From NCBI GenBank assembly GCA_024641735.1, contig JAHECN010000004.1:1-54735 (forward strand): a DNA stretch of 54,735 nucleotides, read 5' to 3'. The translations under genes and the position numbers were made by a program. Shown one piece after another: positions 25,994 through 50,111 of the stretch. Origin of the DNA: Gemmatimonadota bacterium (GTDB lineage: Bacteria > Gemmatimonadota > Gemmatimonadetes > Gemmatimonadales > GWC2-71-9). How positions within the stretch are numbered: the first letter of the stretch is position 1; each line of letters starts with the position of its first letter. The notes under the pieces were generated by a model. The model was given only the letters and a program-made list of their open reading frames with translations, was not told the DNA's origin and made no database searches.

Positions 25994-27847
25994 TCACGAC
26001 TCACGACTCGCCTCCAGCACCTCCAATGCCACCTCCACCCTCCCCATCGGCGCGGCCACCTGCGCGCCCGCTGTCATTCCGCGGACTTCAGTCATCATTT
26101 CCCGCGCGATGCTGACCCCCTCCGCCAGGGCAGCGTCCTTCCCTCGCGCGGAGGCACGGCGCATCCGATCCAGGACCGGCTCGGGGACCGTGATCCCCGG
26201 CACTTCGTTCGCGAGAAACTCGGCATTGCGCAGCGACACCAACGGCCAGATTCCAGCGATCACCGGTACACCGAACGACTCGAGTCGAGGGAGCACGCGT
26301 TCGAGTTGCCGCAGATCGAAGACGGGCTGGGTCATCGCGAAGCAGGCACCCGCTTCGGCCTTCCAGGCGAAGCGCGCCAATTCGCGATCCAGATCTGTGG
26401 CCGCAGGGTTCACGCCGACGCCGTGCACGAAGGCGGTCGGGGCACCGATGGAGTTGTCCCCCGGATCGAGTCCACGATTCAGGCGCGCTACCAGATTCGT
26501 CAAACCGATCGCGTCGATGTCGAAGACCGCGGTGGCATCGGGGTAAGGTCCCATTTTGGGTGGGTCACCGGTGACGATCAACAAGTTGCGCAGTCCTGCG
26601 GCCGCGGCGCCGAGGAGGTCGGAAAGCATGCCGAGCAAGTTGCGATCGCGGCAGGCGTAGTGGACGACCGCTTCGAGTCCGGTCTCGCGCTCGATCAGAA
26701 TGCCCGAGATCAACGCGCCCATCCTGCTCTGGGCGCGTGGCCCGTCGGGCACGTTGACCGCGTCCACGCCAGCCGCACGAAGCTGTCGTGCCTGCTCGAG
26801 CATCGGGGTGGGATCGACACCGCGCGGCGGCACGATCTCGACGGACGTTACCCACTGGCCAGCCGCGAGCTTGGCGCCGAAGGCCGAGCGTGCCGCGAGC
26901 GCGATCGGTTCGGTTCCCTTCACGCGTGGCAGCGTCACGCGATCGGCAGACACCACCGTGGCACGCGCCATGACACTCGCCGAGCGCACGAACCCGCGCA
27001 GCGCCTTCACATGCTCGGGTGTGGTCCCACAACAGCCACCGACAAATCGCGCGCCGGCTTCGACGATGCGGCGGCCATACTCCGCGAAGTACTCTGGGCT
27101 CGCCATGTAGATCTGGCGGTCTCCGACCTCGCGGGGGAGGCCGGCATTCGGCTGGGCCACGAGCGGCACACGGACGACCTTGGCAAGACGTTCAATCGCT
27201 TCGAGTACCCCTTGTGGCCCGATCGAGCAATTGATCCCGATGATGTCGGCGCCGGCGGCTTCGAGAAGGGGGCCAAAGCTTTCGGGCGCCGTACCGTAGG
27301 CCGTCAGTCCATCCACGCCGAGGGTGACCTGCGCCATCAGGGCGAGGTCGCTCCGCGCGCGCACGGCCCGGATCGCGGCTTCCAATTCGTGGAGGTCAGA
27401 GAAGGTCTCGAGGCAAAAGCCACCGACCCCGCCAGCAATCAATCCGTCCACCTGACGCCCGAAGGCGGCTTCCGCCTCGACGATGGACAATTCACCAAAC
27501 GGTTCGACCCGCGTCCCAAGTGGCCCGATGGCACCGAGCACGACGACGTCCGGGCCGACCGCGCCACGCGCCACCCGCGCGGCTGCGCCGTTGATCGCTT
27601 CCGTCTCGTCGGCCAATCCATAATGACTCAGCTTGATCGGATTGGCCCCGAAGGTATTCGTCTCGACGAGCTCGGCCCCAGCGGCCGCATACGCGGCATG
27701 CACCTCCGCGATCAACGTGGGCTGTCGGAGGACGAGCTCATCGAAGCAGACGTTGACGAAGACGCCCTTCTGATAGAGCATCGTCCCCATCGCGCCATCC
27801 AGCACATGGGCACCGCCGTCGGCGATCAGTGCGTGCAAGGTCGTCAT
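25994..27847 (-). CDS. Bifunctional homocysteine S-methyltransferase / methylenetetrahydrofolate reductase
   Basis: A 617-residue fusion like Bacillus YitJ. The N-terminal half (about 1-300) is a zinc-dependent homocysteine methyltransferase beginning [15 protein letters not shown], with the zinc cysteines in GINCSIGP and [11 protein letters not shown]. The C-terminal half (about 325-610) is an FAD-dependent MTHFR barrel starting VTSVEIVPPRGVDPTP, with LLIVTGDPPKMG and GVGVNPAATDLDRE. It can produce methyl-THF and may also methylate homocysteine. ATG 27847 begins one base after the metH stop, so the two genes form a methionine-cycle operon. The extended upstream frame was rejected because it lies wholly within metH. 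Confidence 0.92.
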   Translation of the reverse strand: MTTLHALIADGGAHVLDGAMGTMLYQKGVFVNVCFDELVLRQPTLIAEVHAAYAAAGAELVETNTFGANPIKLSHYGLADETEAINGAAARVARGAVGPDVVVLGAIGPLGTRVEPFGELSIVEAEAAFGRQVDGLIAGGVGGFCLETFSDLHELEAAIRAVRARSDLALMAQVTLGVDGLTAYGTAPESFGPLLEAAGADIIGINCSIGPQGVLEAIERLAKVVRVPLVAQPNAGLPREVGDRQIYMASPEYFAEYGRRIVEAGARFVGGCCGTTPEHVKALRGFVRSASVMARATVVSADRVTLPRVKGTEPIALAARSAFGAKLAAGQWVTSVEIVPPRGVDPTPMLEQARQLRAAGVDAVNVPDGPRAQSRMGALISGILIERETGLEAVVHYACRDRNLLGMLSDLLGAAAAGLRNLLIVTGDPPKMGPYPDATAVFDIDAIGLTNLVARLNRGLDPGDNSIGAPTAFVHGVGVNPAATDLDRELARFAWKAEAGACFAMTQPVFDLRQLERVLPRLESFGVPVIAGIWPLVSLRNAEFLANEVPGITVPEPVLDRMRRASARGKDAALAEGVSIAREMMTEVRGMTAGAQVAAPMGRVEVALEVLEASRES

Positions 27848-27848
27848 C

Positions 27849-31544
<3,696 letters not shown>

Positions 31545-31572
31545 AGGGGCTCCATCAGTTTGTCGCCCCGAG

Positions 31573-31627
31573 GGGCGTCTTAGCGGGTTGTTTAACGTGG
31601 CCGCAAGTCGCGAAAAATCGCCACGGA
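31573..31627 (-). promoter_or_regulatory. SAM-II-like riboswitch upstream of metH
   Basis: Read on the minus strand, CGTGGC (31625-31620) pairs with GCCACG (31601-31596). The enclosed loop starts GATTTTT and ends CTTGCG, and the stem is followed by TTAAACAA and CGCTAAGACGCC. From memory, alphaproteobacterial SAM-II leaders share the order CGTGG-GATTT-CTTGC-GCCACGTTAAACAA-CGCTAAA, which is a close match. One conserved A of CTAAA is G here. The 3' strand (GACGCC) is also half of a CGCCCC/GGGGCG hairpin at 31564-31577, just before the GGAG ribosome site. The two folds would exclude each other, giving a simple translational switch. Confidence 0.8.
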
Positions 31628-31645
31628 ACAAAGAACTAGTAACGG

Positions 31646-31697
31646 GTCGTGAGTCGTGAGTCGAGAGAGGGTCCCCTCGTGATTCGCGACTCACGAC
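31646..31697. repeat. Low-complexity inverted-repeat element E5 (GTCGTGAGTC arms)
   Basis: GTCGTGAGTCG at 31646-31656 is complemented at 31687-31697, and imperfect pairing continues inward through about 31670 and 31675. It lies between the YggT gene's 3' end (31704) and the metH riboswitch, so it may separate the two transcription units. It uses the same word as elements E7 and E9. Confidence 0.7.
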
Positions 31698-31703
31698 ACG
31701 CTG

Positions 31704-32303
31704 CTAGGGTACCAGCCACCCCATGACGACTCGCTCCGCCACCCCCAGCAGCAGCCACGCCACCAACGGGGAGAAGTCGATCATCCCCGTGCGTGGCAGG
31801 ATCCGCTGAATTGGCTCAAGGATCCAATCGGTCAACGCGCGCACAATGCGCATCCACCAGGAGTACGGCGACACACTGAACCAGGAGGTCAGGATCCGGA
31901 TGAGCAGCGCGGCCTGGAGCACCGAAAAGGTGGTGGAGACCAGCATCGGGAGGATGAGGCCGACCTGCAGCGCGTACTGGATGCGCAGGGCCACCCCAAA
32001 GAGCCAACTCACCGCCTGGATGAGGATCAGCCCGAGCACGACGACCGCACCGAGGAGCCAGAGCGGCGCAGATTGTGGGTTGCCTCCCGCGCGCACGACC
32101 CGATGCTCGACCGGGTTCAGCAGGGGATCGCTCCACCCCCGAACAAAGCGGGCCCACGCGCCGAATGGCGTGATGTGCCCGGCACGCACCGCCCAATGCG
32201 TGGCGGCGACGGAGGCACCCACCACGAAGCAGGCGCCCACACCCCACCGGACGACCTGCACACTCCAACCTGCAATCTCGAGAAGGCTCACCGCACCTGA
32301 CAC
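31704..32303 (-). CDS. YggT-family integral membrane protein
   Basis: A 199-residue protein with four to five hydrophobic segments. It contains two YggT-like repeats, recognisable as DPLLNPVEHRVVRAG and DWILEPIQRILPRTGMIDFSPLVAWLLL, the second being the better conserved. YggT (Ycf19) proteins are linked to membrane protein or photosystem assembly and to osmotic tolerance, but their reaction is not known. The start at 32303 overlaps the upstream small cysteine-rich gene by 16 bases. Confidence 0.85.
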   Translation of the reverse strand: MSGAVSLLEIAGWSVQVVRWGVGACFVVGASVAATHWAVRAGHITPFGAWARFVRGWSDPLLNPVEHRVVRAGGNPQSAPLWLLGAVVVLGLILIQAVSWLFGVALRIQYALQVGLILPMLVSTTFSVLQAALLIRILTSWFSVSPYSWWMRIVRALTDWILEPIQRILPRTGMIDFSPLVAWLLLGVAERVVMGWLVP

Positions 32304-45176: not shown

Positions 45177-45271
45177 AGTCGTTAGTCGTGAGTCGCGAGA
45201 GCGAAGAGGCCGGCATCCCGATGGGGGGCCGGCCTTTCACCTTCTAGCGACTCACGACTCACGACTAACGA

Positions 45272-49995: not shown

Positions 49996-50111
49996 AGTCG
50001 CGAGTCGTTGGTCGTGAGTCGCGAGAGGTATGCAGAAATCCCCCCGCCATCGGTTGGCGAGGGGATTCTTGTTTGAGCACTCTCACGACTCACGACCAAC
50101 GACTCGCGACT
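49996..50111. repeat. Low-complexity inverted-repeat element E9 with inner hairpin
   Basis: A 32-base arm at 49996-50027 (repeated AGTCG and GTCGTGAGTC words) matches the complement of 50080-50111 at 31 of 32 positions. Inside is an independent hairpin at 50037-50067, AATCCCC with GGGGATT plus CGCCA with TGGCG, followed by CTTGTTT. It lies between the convergent ccmD and aquaporin genes and overlaps the aquaporin stop. Confidence 0.9.

Follow-up and report, generated by a model that had tools for sequence, protein, structure and literature searches.

The locus raises the question of how expression of a methionine synthase gene is controlled from a leader that resembles a SAM-II riboswitch, and at which step S-adenosylmethionine (SAM) would act. 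SAM-II, the metA motif of Rfam family RF00521 (Corbino et al., 2005; PMC1273637), has been described from alphaproteobacteria, a few other proteobacteria and Bacteroidetes (PMC1273637; PMC2258182), and the published proteobacterial SAM_alpha regulon comprises a metY core together with hom, metA, metX, metC and metW, with no metH (PMC4239095). The stretch of DNA analysed here, hereafter the window (54,735 nt), belongs to a Gemmatimonadales MAG of 2.75 Mb in 245 contigs that is 96% complete.

A SAM-II aptamer precedes the metH operon

A search with Rfam 15 matched the minus-strand leader to RF00521 (SAM-II, SAM_alpha) over the full model length (1-79) with an E-value of 1.3e-6 (Table 1; 36 bits is the curated gathering cutoff), this being the sole gathering-level Rfam match in the whole 54.7 kb window. 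All the conserved blocks named in the initial annotation were found on the minus strand where it had placed them, and so was the replacement of CTAAA by CTAAG. From 31634 to 31542, the leader reads UCUUUGUUC-CGUGGC-GAUUUUUCGCGACUUGCG-GCCACG-UUAAACAACCCGCUAAGACGCCCCUCGGGGCGACAAACUGAUGGAGCCCCU-GUG. The covariance-model check proposed in that annotation also gave a clear outcome: SAM-V produced no match on 31500-31720, even at E <= 10, in contrast with the 43.7 bits of SAM-II. SAM-V shares its core and a related ligand pocket with SAM-II, and a few metagenomic examples of it precede metH (PMC2704228); nevertheless, given these scores and the presence of the outer P2b helix, an identity as SAM-V was rejected and is extremely improbable.

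The window copy agrees with RF00521 in score, in P1 and the conserved blocks, in the H-type pseudoknot P2 and in its location in the leader of a methionine-pathway gene. It differs in standing on metH, in the sequence CTAAG, in a P2b register one pair further inward and in the absence of a terminator. CTAAG was also found in five other metH copies of the genus, at a column that is nearly invariant elsewhere. Judged by its sequence, the aptamer is an ordinary SAM-II and is predicted to recognize SAM.

The gene directly downstream is a complete metH ORF starting at GTG, whose score for NF007024 is well above the cutoff of 1497 bits. Since the ORF for a homocysteine S-methyltransferase/methylenetetrahydrofolate reductase (MTHFR) begins right past the metH stop, the two genes likely share a methionine-synthesis operon. 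Regulation of metH by the SAM-II aptamer is very probable. In all eight members of the genus the metH start is GTG, TTG or apparently CTG, and never ATG.

Table 1. Features of the metH operon and its leader in the window (window positions).
Feature	Position	Strand	Basis
SAM-II aptamer, Rfam model bounds	31559..31634	-	43.7 bits vs gathering score 36
P1 5' strand CGTGGC	31620..31625	-	sequence; P1 cells paired 99.8% in 76 relatives
GATTT block	31619-31615	-	read from sequence
P2b 5' strand GCG, pseudoknot, genus-type shifted register	31609..31611	-	alignment pairs 18-50, 17-51, 16-52
CTTGC block (contains TTGC)	31607-31603	-	read from sequence
P2a 5' strand GCG, pseudoknot	31602..31604	-	pairs with CGC 31585-31583
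P1 3' strand GCCACG	31596..31601	-	sequence; homologue alignment
TTAAACAA block	31595-31588	-	read from sequence
CGCTAAG (contains GCTAA)	31585-31579	-	read from sequence; CTAAG where CTAAA expected
P2a 3' strand CGC	31583..31585	-	homologue alignment
P2b 3' strand CGC, common to hairpin's 5' arm	31575..31577	-	homologue alignment
Alternative hairpin CGCCC-CUCG-GGGCG, proposed anti-sequestor	31564..31577	-	predicted first on growing transcript, -11.0 kcal/mol
GGGGC, proposed sequestor strand, overlaps hairpin 3' side	31565..31569	-	pairs with 31550-31546 in MFE folds
Shine-Dalgarno GGAG, 5 nt ahead of start codon	31550..31553	-	read from sequence
GCCCC, sequestor partner; overlaps last G of Shine-Dalgarno and spacer	31546..31550	-	predicted folds
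metH start codon GTG	31542..31544	-	homologous start position in eight genus members
metH, cobalamin-dependent methionine synthase, 1231 aa	27849..31544	-	NF007024 1924.8 bits; TIGR02082 1614.2 bits
Bifunctional homocysteine S-methyltransferase/MTHFR	25994..27847	-	NF006396 677.5 bits, cutoff 453

The pseudoknot is maintained in a shifted register

Base pairing was assessed in an alignment (A1) of 76 Gemmatimonadota SAM-IIs. P1 was paired almost throughout (Table 1), and both P2a and P2b covary among homologues; at the P2b column pair 15-53, GC was found 31 times, CG 26 times, and AU and UA once each. The structure as a whole exceeded 500 of 500 shuffles for pairing and covariation score, and all slid registers for pairing. 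In the window and its genus mates, 15-53 is a C-C combination and the outer pair is lost, whereas the inner pair 18-50 is gained, so that P2b of the window reads GCG:CGC in a register one pair nearer the ligand side. Among the 76 sequences, 59 can form the outer pair only, nine the inner pair only, eight neither and none both. Because the genus loses 15-53 yet gains 18-50, and no sequence has both, the pseudoknot is maintained, although the genus sequences are related and the register shift therefore represents few independent events.

These data bear on the possibility that the aptamer is a decaying relic, kept by recent ancestry in a source genome where its output has been lost. A shortened platform, the CTAAG sequence and the missing outer P2b pair would fit such decay. 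However, the lost pair is replaced by the inner one, the Rfam score lies above the cutoff and the members of the genus retain SAM-II upstream of metH, which makes a relic quite unlikely.

SAM-II is widespread in Gemmatimonadota and most often precedes metH

Among 61 near relatives, 57 carry SAM-II, as do 202 genomes in a sample of 298 from across the phylum; none of 14 control genomes has one. At 213 distinct sites, a sample that leans to high-scoring SAM-IIs, the commonest first gene was metH (77 sites), followed by genes of the homocysteine methyltransferase/MTHFR type (25), thrC (25), metY (17), metF (15), metX (10), panB (9) and an ATP-grasp gene (8), others being fewer. A survey of 80 metH loci, aimed at other phyla, detected SAM-II only at the Gemmatimonadales locus (L032) and at one locus of Candidatus Marinimicrobia (L061), with a search model built from Gemmatimonadota that could miss distant SAM-II forms. 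The Marinimicrobia locus carries a SAM-II with a terminator upstream of metH (L061, 2404-2480; Rfam, 41.0 bits).

The initial annotation had regarded control of metH by SAM-II in a probable non-proteobacterium as notable. The occurrence of SAM-II on metH in Gemmatimonadales bears this out, but the arrangement is no isolated oddity, as it is the commonest use of SAM-II among the sites collected from the phylum. In the open-licence literature searched, no description of SAM-II in Gemmatimonadota was found, an absence that does not prove novelty, and a broader search returned a soil metagenome survey only. The sensor class was already known, and the new details are probably the metH target across the phylum and the changed output part. 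SAM-II, mostly seen as a proteobacterial switch of early pathway steps, would thereby gain a second phylum in which it is the main control of the methionine pathway and acts on the last, B12-dependent step of methionine synthesis.

Some less expected targets were also observed. At L135, L170, L132 and L157, SAM-II lies upstream of operons in which panB (3-methyl-2-oxobutanoate hydroxymethyltransferase) stands beside thrC, some of these operons also carrying thrB-like and MoaD/MoeB-type sulfur-carrier-like genes; the panB and thrC families were checked with NCBIfam on L135 and L114, and the remaining genes were judged by eye. At L128 and L153, SAM-II precedes an ATP-grasp-like gene, without an NCBIfam match, followed by an apparent luciferase-type flavin monooxygenase gene.

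Output modules differ between the genus and its relatives

Of 63 metH SAM-II leaders from outside the genus, 52 contain a hairpin followed by a U tract, compared with none of the eight inside it (Fisher p 7e-6, relatedness ignored). In these relatives, an antiterminator can pair alternatively with the 3' strand of the aptamer, GCTAA..CGCC (mean z -2.1; 19 of 34 at p <= 0.05), the clearest antiterminators being exact reverse complements, as for GCUAAAACG with CGUUUUAGC. Since this strand is common to aptamer and antiterminator, the shared-strand design pointed out in the initial annotation is general in the phylum and explains SAM-OFF termination there. Antiterminator-type pairing did not reach significance when the genus members were scored together (mean z -0.4).

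The window leader could also work, like those of most relatives, by premature transcription termination at an atypical or Rho-dependent terminator; besides the leaders outside the genus, this would be in line with the genus members G002-G005, which retain hairpins resembling terminators, their tails degraded as in TTCGTCATTT. Against it, the window leader has only 38 nt between the end of CGCTAA and the last base of the GTG start, and holds one 5-bp hairpin followed by ACAAACTGATGG; no U-tract terminator was found between aptamer and metH start, and a terminator-type platform was rejected for this leader. Termination is therefore considered unlikely.

A second possibility is that P2b directly occludes the Shine-Dalgarno sequence, as proposed for the compact, translational metX SAM-II from the Sargasso Sea and as in the best-studied SAM-II mechanism (PMC9373788). 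This seems to be the design in G001, G008 and G009, where the start codon lies 15-16 nt past the start of GCTAA and P2b itself therefore covers the ribosome site, suggesting that metH switches in the genus can act on translation. In the window, by contrast, GGAG (31553-31550) is located outside the P2b strand (31577-31575) and about 21 nt past it, and this platform was also rejected, direct occlusion being quite improbable here. The window copy thus resembles the Sargasso Sea riboswitch in likely acting on translation, and differs from it in that P2b does not hold the Shine-Dalgarno sequence, for which closure via a second helix is proposed. Its leader is the shortest among the genus copies with a separate Shine-Dalgarno.

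Taken with the absence of a terminator, an output mainly on translation rather than on termination is reasonably probable. A comparable situation has been described for the SAM-II copies of S. meliloti metA and metZ, which also have alternative leader structures, and of which one is translational and the other has a terminator in the same genome; the genes are different, and the start codon of S. meliloti metA is a second, distant AUG (PMC9373788). For the phylum, there is an even chance that SAM-II is the main methionine-pathway switch, coupled to exchangeable outputs that include terminators, direct occlusion, a three-strand switch and a serial Met leader-peptide sensor. The genus, in which the same aptamer has different outputs on metH, offers a natural experiment in expression-platform change with the sensor kept.

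A candidate three-strand switch in the window leader

Behind the aptamer and its pseudoknot, the window leader holds mutually exclusive pairings. Strand 1 (CGCCC, 31577-31573) can pair either with the aptamer loop, as P2b, or with strand 2 (GGGCG, 31568-31564), and the 5' arm of the resulting hairpin includes the 3' strand of P2b; the initial annotation had recognized that the last aptamer bases are shared with a hairpin. Its placement of the hairpin at the ribosome site needs qualification: the hairpin adjoins GGAG without covering the Shine-Dalgarno itself, and the pairing of GGGGC with GCCCC is the likely switch. Of 5000 dinucleotide-shuffled leaders, 12 (0.24%) showed the three-strand arrangement, as did 121 of 15628 window stretches of equal length (0.8%); these figures lend only moderate support, as the test was designed after the sequence was seen. 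The arrangement is known from one genome, the source genome.

In the proposed mechanism, SAM binding would lock the P2b pseudoknot via CGC (31577-31575), with strand 1 then held in the aptamer loop, so that the hairpin could not form; the freed GGGGC (31569-31565) would then pair with strand 3 (GCCCC, 31550-31546), closing the ribosome site and turning metH off. Without SAM, the hairpin would form first during transcription and hold GGGGC, the ribosome would enter and metH would be on. Simulated folding of the growing transcript is compatible with this order, the hairpin of strands 1 and 2 appearing first (-11.0 kcal/mol) and the sequestor being favoured once GCCCC has been made. Given this preference for the closed form, the ON state would have to be kinetic or aided by early ribosome binding.

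At ligand-free equilibrium, the sequestor fold (-17.6 kcal/mol) is already more stable than the hairpin form (-14.2), and it also pairs GACGC with GUGUC at the start codon. Equilibrium folding thus fails as a proof of polarity, and SAM-OFF control does not follow from the energies alone. The compact on/off design suggested in the initial annotation remains plausible, but its direction comes from SAM-II biology and the relatives, not from folding energies. The opposite polarity, with SAM turning metH on by taking GACGC away from the start codon that it pairs with, would agree with a folding proxy in which the start codon is more open with the P2b strand removed than at ligand-free equilibrium. 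Repression nevertheless makes more biological sense and agrees with the contexts in which SAM-II has been described, and the relatives carry SAM-linked terminators, which leaves SAM-ON control very unlikely; on this analysis, SAM would in all likelihood be an OFF signal for metH. Overall, the SAM-II riboswitch probably represses the metH operon when SAM is plentiful. Translational SAM-OFF control in general is likewise somewhat favoured, and the exact three-strand route of the window copy is put forward tentatively, at slightly less than even chances.

Methionine-rich leader peptides behind SAM-II

Another SAM-II of the source genome (42.5 bits) lies ahead of a gene for a metX-type homoserine acyltransferase, and no SAM-I was found elsewhere in this genome. 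This metX leader (L112, 3276-3640 of its contig) consists of SAM-II, a first terminator, a 31-codon ORF (MTHHAARILMRMIRMTGAPLGETDGQLRISA), a second hairpin and metX; the second hairpin is terminator-like (-34.6 kcal/mol) and is followed by TTGC rather than by a long U tract. The succession of SAM-II, terminator, Met(-Cys)-rich ORF and second terminator was also observed at L149, L132, L147, L181, L188, L271, L274, L276 and L305, and probably at L273 and L308.

Among the 22 SAM-II leaders in which the gene lies at least 150 nt away, nine contain a short ORF with at least three Met in nine residues (examples are MMCMTMRM, MCMCMGMC, MMCMGMRHMAMAMC, MYMCMG and MPMPMMC), against none in reversed sequences and a mean of 0.0 in shuffles. 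A second hairpin with a T-containing tail was found in eight of these nine in the same scan, and in the ninth (L188) in a separate scan. The Met run ends 76-98 nt ahead of the 5' arm of the second terminator in all 10 leaders examined, and the stretch between them pairs with that arm above chance in five of the 10 (combined p 3e-5). The genes concerned are metX, metY, hom, panB and an aminotransferase gene, and the loci are spread over at least three families within Gemmatimonadota.

The layout of these leaders is apparently that of ribosome-mediated attenuation relying on Met codons. A survey of Actinobacteria found no methionine leader-peptide attenuation (PMC1262725), and a 2010 screen added Firmicutes to the Proteobacteria and Actinobacteria, from which alone leader-peptide systems were then known (PMC2965389). 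In the open-licence literature searched, no precedent was found for a Met leader attenuator placed in series behind a SAM riboswitch, and such attenuators behind SAM-II are possibly more novel than the metH switch itself. If real, they would stack a second, tRNA-charging sensor on the SAM sensor, and transcription would need both low SAM and scarce charged methionyl-tRNA.

Other sequence elements

A TTGAC...TA...T motif with ACAATTGA precedes P1 at most SAM-II sites of relatives, and is absent ahead of the window copy (31626-31675). Intergenic inverted repeats of heptamers (CGACTCA) occur in the window at 31634-31709, 45179-45271 and 50005-50102. The repeat ahead of the riboswitch has a folding energy of -38.8 kcal/mol (z -6.1), and a 16-mer of the repeat has 77 near-exact matches in the genome, compared with 0 in the backward control. 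Several tandem arrays of period 7 with other units (GGGAACA, GCGAACG, CTCCTCT) are also present in the window.
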